Shown: piece by piece, positions 4,520-27,469 of the stretch | How positions within the stretch are numbered: the first letter of the stretch is position 1 | Layout: the number at the start of each line of letters is the position of its first letter | Origin: a virus | DNA: 31,370 nt | Virus record (IMG/VR): IMGVR_UViG_3300046515_000179 | Location: 1-31,370 of that record | Strand: one strand, 5' to 3' | Position numbers and translations under genes: made by a program | Notes under the pieces: generated by a model | Told to the model about the DNA's origin: nothing | Databases searched by the model: none | What the model saw: only the letters and a program-made list of their open reading frames with translations

Positions 4520-6579
4520 AGGTTGGGCCTCATAATACCGATCGATCGAGTACCGACACTGGGCTTGATGTTCAGGCCTGGCTGGTTGGTTTTGGCTTGG
4601 TCAACGGTGGTGCCCGGCGGTGCGCCGTTGAGATTGATGTTGAGTTCACCATTGAGTTTCGGTGCTTGGTTGGCCGATGCCTGCTGAAGCAGCCCGCTGG
4701 ACTGATTGGCCAGATTCGGCCGACTCAACAACTTGTCAGTACTCGGGATGCCTGCCGCGTTGTTCATCATCCGCTGGTAACGCTGAGCACCCTCGACTGC
4801 GCCGGCTTCAACGAACGCGCCATCACCGCCGCCCGGTCCGGCGTTGCGTACTCGTTGCTCTTCGGCAAACTCGTTGGCTTTGTTGGTCGCGGTTTTGATG
4901 ATGCCTTCACCACCCTCGCCGCCGCCGAAATACTTCATCATCGGTTCAATGATCGGTTTCAACTTTTCCCAAAGCTTTCCAAACCAGGCTGCAATGGGCT
5001 CCCAGTTCTTGACGATCATTCCTAGCGGCGTCCATTCGAACATACGTCCGAGGAAGTCCATCACCGGCGTGGAGACGGCCACCAATACATTCCACAACGA
5101 CGAGAACAGCTCGGTCAGCGGCCCCCAGTTTTCGATCACCAGTCCGATCGGGGAGAATGCAAACGCCTGCTTGAACCAGCCCCACAGGACCATGGCCGGA
5201 CCTTTGATCTTTTCCCAGATCGCTTCGAAGTACGGCGCAACCGTCGCCCAGTTGGCAATCAATAAGCCCGCTGCGATCGCAATTCCACGAACGATCAACC
5301 CGACCGGAGACATCGTCGTAACGGCGCTCAGGATCTTGGTTGCTACCACTGCCCCCATCACTGCTAAACGCAACACACCGAAGGCAACGCCAGCACCCAA
5401 CACCCCACGGATTACGCCAGGGTGCTCAGCGGCAAGCGAAGACATTTGGGAAATAGCTGGGCCGATCTGGTCCATGAAGTCATTGAACGGCGGCAGGAGA
5501 CCGGAACCTACAGCAACGCCCAAGCGGGTGACCTTGTTGGTCAGCAGCTGCATGGAGTTGGCAGTGGTCGCAGACCGCGCCGTGTATTCCGCCTCCATCG
5601 AACCCGCAAATTTTCCTTCCTTGCCTACTGCACCGAAACTGGACTTCAACAGATCGAGGTTGGTCAACAGTGGCGCGATCGCGGACACCGACTCAGTACC
5701 GAAGAGCTGCGTCAGTAACCCGGCCTGCTTCGCCGGATCAACCTTGGCGATGCGCTCCAGCACGTCTTCGATGGTGCCCTGGGCGTCCTTTTGCATGCTC
5801 TTCGAAACTTGCTTCACGTCCAGCCGCAGCGACTTGAAAGCATCCGATTGCTGTTTGGTGGCCGCACTGCCTTTGGTCAGCGACAGCATGAAGTTCTTCA
5901 TGCCCGTCGCAGCCACTTCACTGGGCACGCCCACGCCGGCGAGCGTTGCGCCCATCGCGGCAACTTGCCCCGCCGACAGGCCGGCGATGCCACCCAACGA
6001 ACCGATACGGGTCACGATGTCGGAGATCTGCGCCGCCGACGAAGGGCCGATGTTGCTCAGGTAGTTGATCTTGTCAGCCAGGGTAACGACTTCCGGCTGC
6101 GTCATTTTGAATGAGGTCCGCCACTTCGCCATCATGTCGCCGGACTGGTCCGCTGTCTGATCGAAAGCGATCCCCATTTTCACCGCGTCCTCGGCGAACT
6201 GCTTCAGCTCACCACGGGCGAAACCGGCCTGGCCACCGGCGGCAACGATGGCCGCGATGCCGCTCGCCGCCATCGGCATTTTCTCCGACATATCAAGCAC
6301 GTCCTGCCCCATCTGCTTGAACTGTTCGGGCGTGTCGAAGGTGACGACCTTCTTCACGTCCGCCATGGATGTTTCAAATTCCATGGCTGCACGGGCACCA
6401 GCGATGAACGGCGCCGCAAAGGCGCCGCCCTGCAACATATCCTTGAAGCCGATGTTGCCAAGGCCGGTGCTGTTCATCTGTTTGCGGAAGCCCGCAACGT
6501 TCTTGCGGATCCCGGTCAGTGTCGGCGACAGCTTGTCGACGCCGGTGATCAACGCCTTGAGCTGAAACTTGTCCGCCAT
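4516..6579 (-). CDS. Phage tail tape measure protein
   Basis: A 687-residue tape measure protein that sets tail length. The N-terminal half has the TP901-type core pattern: AAMEFETSMADVKKVVTFDT, then alternating Ala/Gly helices up to about residue 330. Hydrophobic segments lie near residues 385-450 (GVIRGVLGAGVAFGVLRLAV and following). A typical region of repeated W-x2-I/L and LFSSLWN motifs follows. The ATG at 6579 overlaps the frameshift-product stop (TGATG); a GTG one codon upstream is also possible. The length suggests a tail near 100 nm by the usual 1.5 Angstrom per residue rule (inference). Confidence 0.93.
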   Translation of the reverse strand: MADKFQLKALITGVDKLSPTLTGIRKNVAGFRKQMNSTGLGNIGFKDMLQGGAFAAPFIAGARAAMEFETSMADVKKVVTFDTPEQFKQMGQDVLDMSEKMPMAASGIAAIVAAGGQAGFARGELKQFAEDAVKMGIAFDQTADQSGDMMAKWRTSFKMTQPEVVTLADKINYLSNIGPSSAAQISDIVTRIGSLGGIAGLSAGQVAAMGATLAGVGVPSEVAATGMKNFMLSLTKGSAATKQQSDAFKSLRLDVKQVSKSMQKDAQGTIEDVLERIAKVDPAKQAGLLTQLFGTESVSAIAPLLTNLDLLKSSFGAVGKEGKFAGSMEAEYTARSATTANSMQLLTNKVTRLGVAVGSGLLPPFNDFMDQIGPAISQMSSLAAEHPGVIRGVLGAGVAFGVLRLAVMGAVVATKILSAVTTMSPVGLIVRGIAIAAGLLIANWATVAPYFEAIWEKIKGPAMVLWGWFKQAFAFSPIGLVIENWGPLTELFSSLWNVLVAVSTPVMDFLGRMFEWTPLGMIVKNWEPIAAWFGKLWEKLKPIIEPMMKYFGGGEGGEGIIKTATNKANEFAEEQRVRNAGPGGGDGAFVEAGAVEGAQRYQRMMNNAAGIPSTDKLLSRPNLANQSSGLLQQASANQAPKLNGELNINLNGAPPGTTVDQAKTNQPGLNIKPSVGTRSIGIMRPNL

Positions 6580-18898: not shown

Positions 18899-19003
18899 GT
18901 GGTGACCGGCTCAGGGAGGCCGGGTGAAGCTGCACAGCACGTGCGAGGTCAGCGCCAAGGCGCAAATTCCATATCGTGGGGACTTTTTACCCCCTCAGTA
19001 CGG

Positions 19004-23295: not shown

Positions 23296-23367
23296 GTAGC
23301 CATAGTCCAGGGTAAACCCTATCCTACGACCACGACCGATGTGCATGTGCTGTGTGTCGTCGTAGCT

Positions 23368-23401
23368 GAGCTGGGGGATCTTTGGTGAGAGGCCCCAGCT
23401 C
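23368..23401 (-). other. Conserved-loop hairpin, copy D (cro-cII gap)
   Basis: On the minus strand a perfect 9-bp stem GAGCTGGGG / CCCCAGCTC closes a 16-nt loop CCTCTCACCAAAGATC. The loop core is shared with copies at 24629, 26546 and 27412, whereas the stem is not. It is in the leader between cro and cII, where lambda has nutR. Confidence 0.78.
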
Positions 23402-23411
23402 GGCACCTTTG

Positions 23412-23669
23412 TTAAGCAGCTTTTGATTCCTGAAGGTCTTGCGGTACGCAGAAGACATCAGGGCGAAGTCGAAACCGAGAAACACCGGTCATCAACTCGG
23501 CCCGAACCACTAGCTCCGCGGGCAAATACCCCCGCTTCAACCAATACGAGACGATCTGCTGAGAAACCACACGTCCCGGGCTCGACATGACCTGCGCGAA
23601 GGCGACCTGACCTTTGGCCGCCTCGACAGCTTCAACCAGCGCTAAGCGCATCTCATTAGAGTGGTTCAT
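23412..23669 (-). CDS. Cro-like / YdaS-type DNA-binding protein
   Basis: An 85-residue protein divergent from the CI gene. The helix-turn-helix region GRVVSQQIVSYWLKRGYLPA followed by AELVVRAELMTGVSRFRLRP and DVF is the YdaS/Cro pattern, in which LRPD(V/I)F ends the domain. It is the first gene of the leftward early operon and expected to repress from the operators in the 106-bp gap 23670-23775. GAGG is 6-7 nt upstream of the start. Gene length is normal. Confidence 0.87.
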   Translation of the reverse strand: MNHSNEMRLALVEAVEAAKGQVAFAQVMSSPGRVVSQQIVSYWLKRGYLPAELVVRAELMTGVSRFRLRPDVFCVPQDLQESKAA

Positions 23670-23700
23670 GGGGACCTCAAAGCAGAAAGTACAAACAGAA

Positions 23701-23730
23701 ATTACAGCTAAATTTGTATTTGCGCAACAA
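23701..23730 (-). promoter_or_regulatory. Leftward early promoter (cro)
   Basis: On the minus strand a -35 like TTGTTG (23725-23730), 18-nt spacer and -10 TGTAAT (23701-23706) lie in front of cro. The -10 overlaps operator 23703-23718, so CI binding would block it. The -35 is poor; the call rests on position and operator overlap. Confidence 0.6.
23703..23718. promoter_or_regulatory. CI/Cro operator O1, 16-bp
   Basis: TACAGCTAAATTTGTA: outer half-sites TACA and TGTA in a 16-bp frame, overlapping the leftward promoter -10. The same spacing recurs at 23750 and 24605. Confidence 0.7.
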
Positions 23731-23739
23731 ATTAGCGTG

Positions 23740-23769
23740 TTGGATGGAGTACAAAATCATTTGTATTAT
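23740..23769 (+). promoter_or_regulatory. Promoter of cI, probably making leaderless mRNA
   Basis: -35 TTGGAT (23740-23745), 18-nt spacer, -10 TATTAT (23764-23769). The expected start point falls at or next to the ATG at 23776, with no ribosome-binding site at a usable distance, as with lambda PRM. An operator (23750-23765) is inside the promoter, allowing self-repression. Confidence 0.6.
23750..23765. promoter_or_regulatory. CI/Cro operator O2, 16-bp
   Basis: TACAAAATCATTTGTA is a 6+6 perfect inverted repeat with 4-bp centre, located between the -35 and -10 of the cI promoter. It is the best match of the operator set. Confidence 0.78.
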
Positions 23770-23775
23770 TCAGGG

Positions 23776-24525
23776 ATGACTAAAGCCTCGAAAAATCCAT
23801 CTGCCGTAGCAGCCTTATTCAAGGCTCGCCGAAAACAACTCAAGCTCAGCCAGGTAGCACTTGCTGAGAAGGTGAGGTCCCTCTTGGGGCCAGAAGAAAC
23901 CTTCAGCCAGCAGACCTACGCAGCTTTCGAAGCCGGCGACACCAAAAACACGCGTTTCGCCATTCAGATAGCCCAGGTACTCGGCATCTCTATAGATGAA
24001 GTTGCCGCACTCAATGGCGAACAAAAGACATCATCCGCTCCTGAGGCGGTCATGCTCGGCCCAATTGAAGTTTGGGATGACGAGACGCCGCTAGATGACG
24101 ATGAAATCGAGGTTCCATTGCTCAAGGAAGTACAGCTTTCGGCGGGAAATGGCAGAGCCGTTACTCAGGACCACGTGAGATCAAAGCTTCGCTTCGGCAA
24201 AATCTCGCTGCGCAGGCAAGGAGTCGAACCCGACAACGCAGTCTGCGTCACGGTGTATGGCAACAGCATGGAACCGGTACTTCCAAACGGCAGTACGGTC
24301 GGCGTTGATCAAGGGAAAAAAGAGTTTAAGGATGGGGACATTTATGCGATCAGTCATAACGATGAGCTACGCGTAAAAATGCTCTATCGCTTACCCCTCG
24401 GCGGGATCAGGATGCGAAGTTTCAACAGAGACGAGTACCCCGACGAGGAATACACCCAGGAAAGAATTCGCTCGGAATCGATAATCATCATTGGCAGAGT
24501 GTTCTGGTATTCAGTCCTTCGCTGA
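23776..24525 (+). CDS. CI-type phage repressor (HTH + S24 peptidase)
   Basis: A 249-residue LexA/CI-like repressor. The N-terminal HTH (residues about 11-75) has ARRKQLKLSQVALAEKV and QQTYAAFEAGDTKN. The C-terminal S24 domain has the Ser nucleophile in VYGNSMEPVL (Ser164), the Lys in ELRVKMLYR (Lys201), and a likely self-cleavage Ala-Gly bond in LSAGNGRA (123-124), so RecA-dependent induction is expected. ATG 23776 is preferred over in-frame upstream starts because the upstream part would read through the operators. It maintains lysogeny and is divergent from cro. The operators are at 23703, 23750 and 24605. Confidence 0.94.
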   Translation: MTKASKNPSAVAALFKARRKQLKLSQVALAEKVRSLLGPEETFSQQTYAAFEAGDTKNTRFAIQIAQVLGISIDEVAALNGEQKTSSAPEAVMLGPIEVWDDETPLDDDEIEVPLLKEVQLSAGNGRAVTQDHVRSKLRFGKISLRRQGVEPDNAVCVTVYGNSMEPVLPNGSTVGVDQGKKEFKDGDIYAISHNDELRVKMLYRLPLGGIRMRSFNRDEYPDEEYTQERIRSESIIIIGRVFWYSVLR

Positions 24526-24536
24526 CACTCCCAAAT

Positions 24537-24565
24537 AAAAAGCCCGCATCAAGCGGGTTTTTTTT
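24537..24565 (+). terminator. Terminator after cI
   Basis: AAAAGCCCGC, loop ATCAA, GCGGGTTTTTTTT. A CCCGC/GCGGG stem with flanking A and T tracts ends the cI transcript before the rightward promoter at 24595. Confidence 0.88.
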
Positions 24566-24580
24566 CACCCAAAACCAGAA

Positions 24581-24596
24581 TACAAATTTACCTGTT
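24581..24596. promoter_or_regulatory. Weak operator half-set, 16-bp
   Basis: TACAAATTTACCTGTT has TACA and TGTT eight bases apart, a degenerate form of the TACA(N8)TGTA operator, ending on the first two bases of the -35 of the rightward promoter. Confidence 0.45.
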
Positions 24597-24622
24597 GACC
24601 ATATTACAAATTGAATTGTAGT
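24595..24622 (+). promoter_or_regulatory. Rightward early promoter
   Basis: -35 TTGACC (24595-24600), 16-nt spacer, -10 TGTAGT (24617-24622). It is covered by operator 24605-24620, so it is expected to be off in the lysogen and on after CI cleavage. The start point is predicted near 24629, exactly where hairpin copy A begins. Confidence 0.7.
24605..24620. promoter_or_regulatory. CI/Cro operator O3, 16-bp
   Basis: TACAAATTGAATTGTA: TACAA and TTGTA half-sites in the same 16-bp frame as O1 and O2, between -35 and -10 of the rightward promoter. Confidence 0.75.
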
Positions 24623-24628
24623 CTTGTT

Positions 24629-24657
24629 CTCGTACCCCTCTCACCAAAGAGTACGAG
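24629..24657 (+). other. Conserved-loop hairpin, copy A (5' end of rightward transcript)
   Basis: Stem CTCGTAC / GTACGAG (7 bp, perfect) closes a 15-nt loop CCCTCTCACCAAAGA. The stem ends two bases before the ATG at 24660 and begins at the predicted transcription start, so the mRNA would open with this hairpin. It also covers the place where a ribosome-binding site should be. Confidence 0.78.
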
Positions 24658-24659
24658 CC

Positions 24660-24860
24660 ATGCAAACCACACAGCACAGCAACACCCGTTGCCCGGTCTA
24701 TCTGCACCCGTCGGCGTGCAGTAGCCGGGCTGCCGTCGAAGCCATCCAGCGCCAAACCGGCTTACTGGTAATCACCAGCCCTAAAGGCCGTCCCGCGGCT
24801 GTCGAGCCATCCAACTCCGTCACCGACAGTTCGTGGCCATTCGGGGGCGACGCAGCATGA
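24660..24860 (+). CDS. Small protein of unknown function, first gene of the rightward operon
   Basis: A 66-residue protein, MQTTQHSNTRCPVYLHPSAC at the start and a 20-residue helix-like AAVEAIQRQTGLLVITSPKG segment. I do not recognise it. It starts 2 nt after a strong hairpin and has no clear Shine-Dalgarno, so translation may depend on opening of that hairpin. It overlaps the next gene by 4 bases (ATGA). Confidence 0.6.
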   Translation: MQTTQHSNTRCPVYLHPSACSSRAAVEAIQRQTGLLVITSPKGRPAAVEPSNSVTDSSWPFGGDAA

Positions 24861-25228
24861 ATAGCTATCTCATCCCCCTCGCAAAACAAGATCTGTTGCA
24901 CCACATGCTGCAAGTCGGCGGCGCAGCCGTATGCCCTCTCCAACGACCTGAGCAAACCATCCACGCGAAATTTGAAGTCGAGCTCACCGAGTCCACCGCA
25001 GTCATCAACGTTGACCTGGGCGGCCTTACCGGTGAATTGACGCTCAAGCGCGCGGATCGGGCCAACCACCTGCACCTGCGGGAGTTCATTCAGGACATTG
25101 CGAATGGCCGAATCGAGTCTGCGCAACCCGCACCACCAGGCCAGATCGGCCGCTTGGCGCAGATCGATCAAGCGCTGGCCGACTCGGAAGCATTGCTAGA
25201 CCGCGTTCGCAAACTGATCGCAGCCTGA
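24857..25228 (+). CDS. Conserved hypothetical phage protein
   Basis: A 123-residue protein starting MNSYLIPLAKQDLLHHMLQV. A beta-rich half (HAKFEVELTESTAVINVDLG) is followed by a C-terminal helical region (IGRLAQIDQALADSEALLDR). No known domain is recognised. It is coupled to the previous gene by ATGA and followed by the KilAC-like gene after 10 bases. Such genes accompany the early rightward operons of Pseudomonas phages. Confidence 0.65.
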   Translation: MNSYLIPLAKQDLLHHMLQVGGAAVCPLQRPEQTIHAKFEVELTESTAVINVDLGGLTGELTLKRADRANHLHLREFIQDIANGRIESAQPAPPGQIGRLAQIDQALADSEALLDRVRKLIAA

Positions 25229-25238
25229 GGACAGCGCC

Positions 25239-25520
25239 ATGAACCGCACCCTGGATGAAACCGCCGCCGTACTCGGTCTCAAACCCCGCAAATTTCGCAG
25301 CCAGCTGCGCGAGCTCCGTGTTTTGACCCAAAGCGGCGAGCTCGCCAGCCAGCATCGCGATCGTGGCCACCTGTTCTCCGATCCACGCAGCCGCTGGAAC
25401 GACAACATCAAAGGCTACAGCCACTACGCAGTAGTGATGGTGACTGAGCGCGGCGTCGAGTGGCTGGCAAAGCAGCTCGGCATCGGCATCAAGGCACAGA
25501 ACAAGGATGCTGCAGCATGA
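25239..25520 (+). CDS. KilAC/ANT-like DNA-binding protein, probable
   Basis: A 93-residue protein: an N-terminal winged-helix-like unit (DETAAVLGLKPRKFRSQLRE, LRVLTQSGELASQHRDRGHL) and a C-terminal strand-helix (SHYAVVMVTERGVEWLAKQL). This matches the C-terminal antirepressor (ANT/KilAC) module without an N-terminal partner. Antirepressors counter CI, which would fit its place in an early operon, but the activity is inferred. GAGGA precedes the ATG by 8 nt. Confidence 0.68.
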   Translation: MNRTLDETAAVLGLKPRKFRSQLRELRVLTQSGELASQHRDRGHLFSDPRSRWNDNIKGYSHYAVVMVTERGVEWLAKQLGIGIKAQNKDAAA

Positions 25521-25900
25521 AAACAAACTACTTCAACGCATACACCCAGGCCCTCGGCGCCCTACGGTTGATCCCGATTTATCTGGACAGCCCGGGCGTG
25601 GTCAGTCGAGCCACGCTCATCGGCGCCGCCAGCGAAGCCATTGACCTGCTGGGCAACATTCCCTGCCGCACTCTGGAACTGGCCGAAGTCTTTCGCTGCG
25701 TCAACGCCGTGATTCAAGAAGGCCAGGTGGCGTACGTCACCCCAACCAACTCACCGGAATACCCATTCGGCGCCGTAGTCGCTGACGACAAGGGCCGGAT
25801 CTGCGCTGCTGCCATGGGCAAAAGCAAAGAAGGCCTTGCCGAAATGATCCGCCTGAAGTTGGTGCCCCGATCGGAGGGGCACGGGGAGGAAGCCGCGTGA
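25517..25900 (+). CDS. Conserved hypothetical phage protein
   Basis: A 127-residue protein beginning MKTNYFNAYTQALGALRLIP. It has a helical N-terminal half and a strand-rich centre (QVAYVTPTNSPEYPFGAVVA) and ends in a Gly/Glu-rich tail. No domain is recognised. It is linked by 4-base overlaps to both neighbours (KilAC-like and PrtN-like), so it is in the same translational chain. Confidence 0.6.
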   Translation: MKTNYFNAYTQALGALRLIPIYLDSPGVVSRATLIGAASEAIDLLGNIPCRTLELAEVFRCVNAVIQEGQVAYVTPTNSPEYPFGAVVADDKGRICAAAMGKSKEGLAEMIRLKLVPRSEGHGEEAA

Positions 25901-26139
25901 GCAACACACTTGACCAATTGCGTCGCCAGTTCGCCACACCCTGCCCGACGCTGTCGGCGGTACGCGAACAATACTTCCCGCACATCCGGACCGACCGCTA
26001 TCTGCTGACGGAAATCAAGGCCGGGCGCATCGCGCTGGTGGTAAAGCGCCTGCACGGGTCCGCACGCGCACAACGCGTGGTGTACCTGCACGACCTGGCC
26101 GACTTCCTCGACGCCCAAGCAACCAAGGAAGCAGCCTGA
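25897..26139 (+). CDS. PrtN-like (pyocin activator family) protein 1
   Basis: An 80-residue protein starting at GTG 25897 with GGAGG 8-9 nt upstream. It has the PrtN pattern VREQYFPHIRTDRYLLTEIK, AGRIALVVKRLHGSARAQ and VVYLHDLADFLDAQ, which is a small wing-like DNA-binding fold. PrtN in P. aeruginosa activates pyocin genes; here it is prophage-borne and its targets are unknown. A second member lies at 29060-29335. The frame overlaps the preceding gene by 4 bases. Confidence 0.78.
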   Translation: MSNTLDQLRRQFATPCPTLSAVREQYFPHIRTDRYLLTEIKAGRIALVVKRLHGSARAQRVVYLHDLADFLDAQATKEAA

Positions 26140-26198
26140 CTCACCGGTGACCCCTGCCGACCAGGGGCAAACAACTCGCACTCAATGAGGCACAGCAC

Positions 26199-26543
26199 AT
26201 GAGCAAAGCACGCCCCTTCATCGACACGCTACGAGACATCGAGGCCGGCGGCCTACTCGATGAATTGAGCGAGGCCCAGTACAGCCTGATCGATGCCATT
26301 CGCCTGTCCGGCAAAGCCGGCAAGCTGGTGATCGAACTGAACTACAAGCCCGACGGGCGCGGCCAGATGAACATCAAGGCTGACGTCAAAGTGAAGGAAC
26401 CGGCTCTGTCCCGCGGTACTTCCCTGTTCTTCCTGACCCCCGAGGGCAACCTCACCCGCCGCGACCCACGGCAGCAAGACTTGCAGCTTCGCCCTGTGAT
26501 TGAAGAGGACAGCCCTGCAAGCCTTCGCAACGTTTCGCAGTAA
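26199..26543 (+). CDS. Conserved hypothetical phage protein
   Basis: A 114-residue protein: MSKARPFIDTLRDIEAGGLL, then ELSEAQYSLIDAIRLSGKAG and KLVIELNYKPDGRGQMNIKA, forming helices followed by a beta hairpin with a charged end. No family is recognised by me. GAGG is upstream of ATG 26199. It is followed after a 28-base gap, which holds motif copy B, by the DUF2303 gene. Confidence 0.68.
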   Translation: MSKARPFIDTLRDIEAGGLLDELSEAQYSLIDAIRLSGKAGKLVIELNYKPDGRGQMNIKADVKVKEPALSRGTSLFFLTPEGNLTRRDPRQQDLQLRPVIEEDSPASLRNVSQ

Positions 26544-26545
26544 AG

Positions 26546-26557
26546 CCTCTCACCAAA
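26546..26557 (+). other. Conserved-loop motif, copy B (no stem seen)
   Basis: CCTCTCACCAAA is identical to the core of the hairpin loops at 23368, 24629 and 27412, but I see no flanking pairing here. It lies between two genes, directly in front of the GGAG site of the DUF2303 gene. Confidence 0.6.
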
Positions 26558-26571
26558 ATGGAGCACATCCA

Positions 26572-27393
26572 ATGCAGCAAGCAATTCAACATCTCGTGAC
26601 CCTAGCCCAAGCCCTGGGCAAACCGATTGACCATGACGATCTGGCCGCACCATTCGCTCTGATTCCCGACGGCGTTGACATTAAGTCTCTGGAACATCTG
26701 CAACATGCACCAACGCGTGTCCGCCAGAAAATCACCGTGCTTGATGCCGACAGCTTCATTGCCTACGTCAACCGATTTGCTACTGCGGCAACTGCGGTCT
26801 TCTGCAATGGACCCGAAGGCCGCACATTCTCGGCGGTGATCGACTACCACCAACCCGATTTGCCAGCCTGGAGCGATCACACCGCAACCTATTGCTGCCC
26901 TATCACGGTCGAGTGGGGCCGCTGGAAAGCCGGCGATCGCAAGCGCATGGACCAGGCCACATTCGCCGAGTTTGTTGAAGAGAATGTGAAAGACATCGTC
27001 GTACCGGACGACACACCAACAGCGCCAAGCGCCGCCGACATGCTGGAGATCAGCAGAACACTGGAAGCGAAGAAGAACATTTCATTCCGCCAAGGCACTC
27101 GACTGGACAACGGCCAGGTCCAGTTGACCTACAACGAAGAAATCGACGGCCGTGCCGGCGAGACCGGACAGCTCAACATTCCCGAACAGTTTTTCATCGG
27201 CGTGAAACCTTTCCTCGGCGGTGACGCCTTCTGCGTCCCCGCGCGCTTTCGCTATCGAATTGTCGATAGCCGCCTGCAAATGTGGTTCGAGCTGGTACGA
27301 CCAGAAAAAGTACTGGAAGAAGCCTATAACGCGGTCCGCACAAAGATCAAAGGCGCGATCAACGACGTACCACTGTACGAAGCAACCCGGTAA
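26572..27393 (+). CDS. DUF2303 family protein
   Basis: A 273-residue protein of the DUF2303 family, often found in early operons of phages of Gram-negatives. It starts MQQAIQHLVTLAQALGKPID and has DGVDIKSLEHLQHAPTRVRQ, a central FCNGPEGRTFSAVIDYHQPD and a C-terminal GDAFCVPARFRYRIVDSRLQ segment. ATG 26572 with GGAG 9 nt upstream is preferred to the in-frame ATG at 26500. Function unknown; it may act near DNA or recombination proteins in other phages, but I cannot say here. Confidence 0.87.
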   Translation: MQQAIQHLVTLAQALGKPIDHDDLAAPFALIPDGVDIKSLEHLQHAPTRVRQKITVLDADSFIAYVNRFATAATAVFCNGPEGRTFSAVIDYHQPDLPAWSDHTATYCCPITVEWGRWKAGDRKRMDQATFAEFVEENVKDIVVPDDTPTAPSAADMLEISRTLEAKKNISFRQGTRLDNGQVQLTYNEEIDGRAGETGQLNIPEQFFIGVKPFLGGDAFCVPARFRYRIVDSRLQMWFELVRPEKVLEEAYNAVRTKIKGAINDVPLYEATR

Positions 27394-27411
27394 CTAACCC
27401 CGAAGCTAAAC

Positions 27412-27448
27412 CCCGCTGCCGTCCTCTCACCAAAGATCCGGCGGCGGG
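27412..27448 (+). other. Conserved-loop hairpin, copy C
   Basis: Stem CCCGCTGCCG / CGGCGGCGGG (10 bp, one U-G pair in RNA) closes a 17-nt loop TCCTCTCACCAAAGATC. It lies in the 76-base gap between the DUF2303 gene and the next gene. Confidence 0.78.
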
Positions 27449-27469
27449 CTCTACCGAGGATCACAGCAC

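Follow-up and report, generated by a model that had tools for sequence, protein, structure and literature searches.

The stretch of DNA analyzed here, positions 1 to 31,370 of the IMG/VR virus record IMGVR_UViG_3300046515_000179 (31,370 nucleotides; hereafter the window), comes from a temperate phage of Pseudomonas whose control region resembles that of lambda, and the gaps between its early genes carry repeated copies of a short core, CCTCTCACCAAA, most of them displayed in hairpin loops. Judged from sequence, we favor, at slightly better than even, an explanation in which copy L, the one between cro and cII, encodes a plus-strand antisense RNA of the P1/P7 c4 or P22 sar type that has the other sites (R1, R2 and R3) as its targets. 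A preliminary description of this DNA had proposed a phage-wide RNA control signal; an unnamed, family-wide element does stand in the leaders of both early operons, but its four copies are probably not equivalent, the cro-cII copy resembling an antisense gene and the others its targets.

Exactly four exact copies of the core occur in the window, every one of them intergenic and oriented with transcription, against a chance expectation of about 0.004 for a random 12-mer in 31 kb; the same pattern read backwards, as a control, has no match in the window. The copies are the following:

23381-23392, minus strand: core copy L (copy 1), between cro and cII
24629..24657, plus strand: R1, stem CTCGTAC/GTACGAG with the core at 24637-24648, ending 2 nt before the start codon of a gene for a 66-aa protein
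26546..26557, plus strand: R2, the core alone, stemless, immediately 5' of the Shine-Dalgarno sequence of the DUF2303 gene
27412..27448, plus strand: R3, stem CCCGCTGCCG/CGGCGGCGGG with the core at 27423-27434

The preliminary description had placed the four cores at these positions, reading along transcription on both strands and with three of them in hairpin loops, and all of this is borne out. The minimum free energy (MFE) z-scores of the stems are -4.0 for copy 1, -2.4 for copy 2 and -3.0 for copy 4, and copy 3 (R2) has no hairpin (z +1.9). Its authors had also known of no named element with this loop, in agreement with Rfam, where no match exceeded the gathering threshold and those below it were at chance level.

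The sites are bipartite, a second motif, CACAGCAC (motif 2), lying 21-27 nt downstream of the core at L, R1 and R3. It also precedes the YfdP-like gene, and the early-operon sense-strand copies in the window all lie at these gaps:

24670..24677, plus strand: motif 2 of R1, within codons 4-7 of the 66-aa gene (MQTTQHS)
26191..26198, plus strand: motif 2 adjoining ATG 26199 of the phrog_204 (YfdP-like) gene
27462..27469, plus strand: motif 2 of R3, adjoining ATG 27470

The core is missing before the phrog_204 gene in the window phage and is present there in a related phage, L293. Where motif 2 of R1 overlaps codons, the codon before Gln ends in A in about 90% of 97 distinct sequences, CAG is used in 93% of cases versus 68% elsewhere in the gene, and CAC is strongly favored; judging from this skew, the motif is constrained at the codon level inside the 66-aa gene. 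In four phages motif 2 reads ACACAGCCA, altered jointly in the L copy and in the target copies.

When viral contigs were scanned with a 14-mer, many Pseudomonas phages were found to carry the same site set at the same gene gaps, and the sites now extend to more than 200 related Pseudomonadaceae phage and prophage loci, with more than 200 loci typed for their loop word. Loci picked by cII or DUF2303 homology, independently of the motif, retain the site at the same position, the core being exact in 52 of 61 L gaps and having one mismatch in another 8. Among 24 host genomes, selected for carrying the site, the core is almost confined to prophage clusters (59 versus 4 for the reversed pattern among the matches listed). 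A looser pattern is matched in 111 of 299 genomes of the genus, where the reversed control is frequent too, so that single matches in this sample mean little. Some phages (L096, L116, L123) carry two or three L hairpins in tandem. One locus, L039, has an additional exact core right after the cI stop codon, where the cI terminator begins (4736-4747, plus strand).

The preliminary description regarded the loop as fixed, which does not hold: it is constant within one phage and differs between phages. Each phage has its own loop word of 7-10 letters, the same at all its sites despite unrelated stems, and related phages exchange the word in all copies together. The words include CTCTCACC, CTCTGACC, CCTCTAC (LPPA56), CTTACCA (PG1), CTCACCA (pAN) and CCTACCA; CTCTCAC is found in L256 and Turba, and the sites of L293 all read CTCTGACC or CTCTGAC. 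Another 40 genome loci, found by cII homology, added CCTACCA and further words, each coherent per phage. The cleanest pair for a concerted switch is L441 and L442, which show the same C/G difference at all five of their orthologous sites, the two L sites as well as R1, R2 and R3, and are 85-94% alike in flanks and genes. In Turba, LPPA56 and PG1 the loop word is nearly limited to the sites over almost the entire genome. Were pairing the only determinant of specificity, any change in L would have to be matched in every R loop, giving phage-specific alleles; covariation of the predicted RNA and its targets among relatives, as expected of c4- or sar-type antisense control, is what the loci display.

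The proposed antisense gene comprises a plus-strand promoter signature and a predicted two-hairpin RNA:

23297..23325, plus strand: putative pRE-like antisense promoter directed towards cI, with -35 TAGCCA at 23297-23302, a 17-nt spacer and -10 TATCCT at 23320-23325
23332..23415, plus strand: predicted antisense RNA, its start placed by the distance from the -10 box; it may run on through antisense cro towards cI
23347..23354, plus strand: first loop (loop 1) of the predicted antisense RNA, GTGCTGTG, which complements motif 2 and in most phages is presented by a hairpin
23365..23404, plus strand: predicted antisense hairpin 2, GCTGAGCTGGGG/CCCCAGCTCGGC, with loop GATCTTTGGTGAGAGG at 23377-23392, complement of the core

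At the aligned place between the cII start and L, TAGCCA-17-TAnnnT is present in 64 of 67 distinct phages, a result that does not depend on the strand comparison of the L stem. The -10 box is conserved in the sigma-70 pattern (T1 97%, A2 99%, T6 97%, middle bases variable), and the T and G of the -35 hexamer are invariant. A 96-nt fold of the predicted RNA has an energy of -40.2 kcal/mol (z -2.9) and consists of two hairpins, the first with GUGCUGUG and the second with UUUGGUGAGAGG exposed in the loop; GUGCUGUG complements motif 2 and UUUGGUGAGAGG the core, in an order that fits antiparallel pairing with R1 and R3. An inverted repeat, CCGTAAA/TTTACGG (23294-23272, minus strand), encloses the cII ribosome binding site (RBS) in its loop; the arms of the repeat differ in other phages (GCGTTA/TAACGC, GGTAG/CTACC). 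This repeat could also be an activator site for the plus-strand promoter.

Pairing of the L stem on either strand was compared in sixteen distinct stems of the window's clade, 192 cells in all. Pairing is kept in 99.5% of cells (all but one of 192) on the plus strand versus 92.7% on the minus strand, the cells that fail on the minus strand being G-U on the plus strand. The covariation score is 0.297 on the plus strand versus 0.190 on the minus strand (0 of 500 shuffles), and both sides are altered in 5 of the 12 L-stem pairs (0 of 500 shuffles). The earlier claim that the stems carry the covariation signature of a selected RNA stands for the compensatory changes in the L stem but not as general RNA covariation: G-U pairs are not in general excess, so that the case for an RNA element is built on the promoter and, in a single clade, on the L stem.

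Several observations weigh against an antisense gene at L. Stem mismatches show no excess of G-U (distinct contexts: 17 G-U, 18 A-C and 19 other), and a directional G-U test on differences between L and R sites was uninformative. In 9 of 11 clusters of the CTCTGAC clade, the opposite strand gives the better fold of the L stem, by an MFE test with neutral loops that is biased by composition and was controlled by the mismatch counts. The 3' end of the predicted RNA has no convincing conserved terminator. Duplex energies favor cognate partners (-63.4 kcal/mol versus -56.4 kcal/mol for non-cognate ones), a point for the antisense reading, but they were computed on long segments and are inflated. 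Finally, the complementarity of L and R sites follows from their shared sense sequence and is therefore not independent evidence.

The proposed mechanism is as follows. An antisense RNA transcribed from the promoter at 23297-23325 would present GUGCUGUG and then UUUGGUGAGAGG. R1, R2 and R3 would be its trans targets in the left early operon mRNA, where the core CCUCUCACCA is either single-stranded or part of a hairpin loop. At R1 and R3, where the core is followed 21-27 nt downstream by motif 2, RNA and target would be collinear antiparallel complements over the RBS and start codon, and pairing would block translation or open the mRNA to RNase III. The same RNA would be fully complementary to the cro-cII mRNA in cis. 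Such pairing would account for the concerted loop alleles without a protein and might serve lysogeny or early shut-off. In keeping with this, the start codons at R1 and R3 are flanked or covered by the core and motif 2, and the pairing sequences lie in hairpin loops of both predicted partners, except at stemless R2.

The preliminary description supposed that something probably reads the loop in single-stranded form, with a binding protein in view. Single-stranded reading is supported, but the switches of loop word are not followed by any conserved protein of the early region, which makes a binding protein unlikely. This comparison covers proteins encoded in the compared loci and its result is negative evidence. 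A protein reader should differ when the word differs, so the constancy of the early proteins speaks against one. Between LPPA56 (CCTCTAC) and Meadow (CTCTCAC) the identities are 99.4% for cII, 100% for TraR and 99.7% for the primase; the PrtN-like protein is 98.7% identical across the same two words, the KilAC-like protein is 100% identical between L256 and LPPA56, and the 66-aa protein is 98.4% identical between L429 and pAN. For most families, one contrast or more lacks any fixed column that tracks the loop word, and no family is convincing throughout. The proteins cI and cro are highly variable inside a single loop type, one loop word occurs with both kinds of primase (PrimPol in 92 loci, PriCT-2/Toprim in 96), and no virion module is common to the loop types. 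The 66-aa protein, which occupies the position of lambda N, was rejected as a reader; it recombines freely against the loop word. An antisense RNA encoded elsewhere in the phage was rejected as well: in Turba, LPPA56 and PG1, no 7-nt complement of the loop word was found at a consistent position apart from the strand opposite the sites.

Processive antitermination of the nut type, in which sites loaded on nascent early transcripts modify RNA polymerase, is an unlikely alternative, although the positions match lambda exactly in both early operons (cro-cII corresponding to nutR, the first leader of the other operon to nutL), the sites are in sense orientation without exception, and the loop words resemble boxA, one phage having the word CTCTTAC. 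Hairpin elements are common to both systems, and for lambda N/nut specificity groups exist among related phages. In the present family, however, no N-like reader with matching specificity tracks the loop, the loops measure 9-17 nt, and copies stand at internal gene starts, with targets adjoining start codons. The left operon has no internal intrinsic terminator to overcome, the sole terminator in the late region seems to belong to a PrtN-type late switch, and recognition by NusB/S10 would need no phage-wide switches.

Translational control by a phage or host protein that binds the loop beside ribosome binding sites is decidedly improbable. It would suit targets 2-40 nt from start codons and a core that is kept where the stem is lost, but coherent switches of the word occur among phages with 97-100% identity in their conserved early proteins, virion modules do not follow the types, and a host factor should be the same for phages that share a host (Turba, LPPA56). 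Least probable of all is a DNA-level element, with single-stranded or cruciform hairpins as priming or initiation sites for a phage replication protein. In its favor, the stems lack a G-U excess, the recognition sites of the NrS-1 PrimPol, TTTGGTTA and GTGA, are similar to the complement TTTGGTGA, and the R1 arms extend into the promoter in some phages, but the same word occurs with either primase kind, primases are 99.7% identical between phages of different words, and the sites lie in leaders only, reading with transcription. A PrimPol priming site in particular was rejected, as the sites neither co-occur nor co-vary with the primase. In this phage family the N-terminal half of the primase is swapped between PrimPol and PriCT-2/Toprim types, and the DUF5906 part is retained.

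To our knowledge, the phage antisense RNAs described so far usually have one target, and P22 sar has neither repeated target sites nor loop alleles. The c4 RNA lies upstream in the same transcript as its target. The antisense RNA favored here would resemble it in being a phage RNA that pairs around the RBS through complementary stretches in loops, with a specificity that varies between relatives; c4 pairs near the ribosome binding site via its loops and underlies the heteroimmunity of related phages (PMC12197685). Whereas c4 has one target, the ant mRNA, at least three targets in the other early operon would fall to the single RNA encoded opposite the cro-cII leader. Like P22 sar, it would be a small, trans-acting antisense RNA of the immunity region that blocks early-gene translation, although sar has a single target, ant (PMC12197685). 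Like lambda OOP, it would be encoded opposite the cII region and pair with cII mRNA in cis, but OOP overlaps the cII 3' end and has no trans targets, and the present RNA would lie upstream of cII, towards cI (PMC12197685, PMC7067206). STnc6030 of prophage BTP1 offers a parallel in phage-specific exclusion by antisense RNA with escape through point changes, yet it is long, lies opposite late genes and has no hairpin loops repeated in trans targets (PMC7067206). The resemblance is one of function, and the element is not assigned to c4, sar or OOP.

The wider picture is more tentative and, in our estimate, falls a little short of even: in this temperate phage family a single two-loop antisense RNA would govern several early genes of the opposite operon, its at least six concerted alleles would form RNA-based compatibility groups among phages with near-identical early proteins, and the late-operon leader may carry one of the keys. 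If so, a single RNA that addresses several hairpin targets and whose loop varies in a natural allelic series would provide a ready data set on the evolution of antisense specificity, and compatibility groups of Pseudomonas prophages would be predictable from sequence. The lock-and-key principle would be directly testable, since single-base loop changes with matching partners are present in natural phages.

The late-operon leader carries the complement of motif 2 upstream of a terminator:

18933..18940, minus strand: GTGCTGTG within the leader of the late operon, ahead of the terminator at 18898-18881

This copy is present in most phages, mostly inside a small hairpin, and is missing in the four with an altered motif 2. 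Complementarity of at least 9 nt to the late leader is found at 28 motif 2 sites versus 5.75 expected from shuffles. The leader may constitute a second RNA, comparable to lambda 6S, that carries the motif 2 anti-loop and shares the targets of the first. As a partner of the core it was rejected, being complementary in L418 and L423 only, which was judged to be chance. In all six phages examined, a single strong terminator precedes the holin on the right-operon strand (18898-18881, minus strand, in the window). It follows a phrog_4300-type gene, of which 4 of 5 members tested are weakly similar to the PA0613 family, and is preceded by TCAAAG direct repeats at about 19060-18990 (minus strand). 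Together with the PrtN-like gene, the repeats suggest a pyocin-type late switch like that of AlpA, possibly by antitermination. AlpA lets RNA polymerase bypass intrinsic terminators (PMC7969949), and by analogy PrtN would act in the same way.

The genes that frame these sites are arranged as follows:

23669-23412, minus strand: cro, YdaS-like
from 23271, minus strand: cII, Phage_CP76, 3' of cro in the right operon
23776-24525, plus strand: cI, followed by its own terminator
24660-24860, plus strand: gene of the 66-aa protein (phrog_13491, CPVYLHP...TGLLVI), conserved
25897-26139, plus strand: PrtN-like gene
from ATG 26199, plus strand: YfdP-like gene (phrog_204)
26572-27393, plus strand: DUF2303 (YfdQ-like) gene
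from ATG 27470, plus strand: gene after DUF2303, preceded by R3

Past the cI terminator, the left early operon encodes on the plus strand the 66-aa protein (its gene is absent from L096 and L116), a KilAC-like protein, phrog_8889, the PrtN-like, YfdP-like and DUF2303/YfdQ-like proteins and further genes up to an integrase. The start of cII is probably ATG 23271, because locus L214 carries a stop codon upstream, which puts copy 1 in the cro-cII gap, some 110 nt upstream of cII. After cII, the minus strand continues with a PriCT-2/Toprim primase-helicase and then the late genes.

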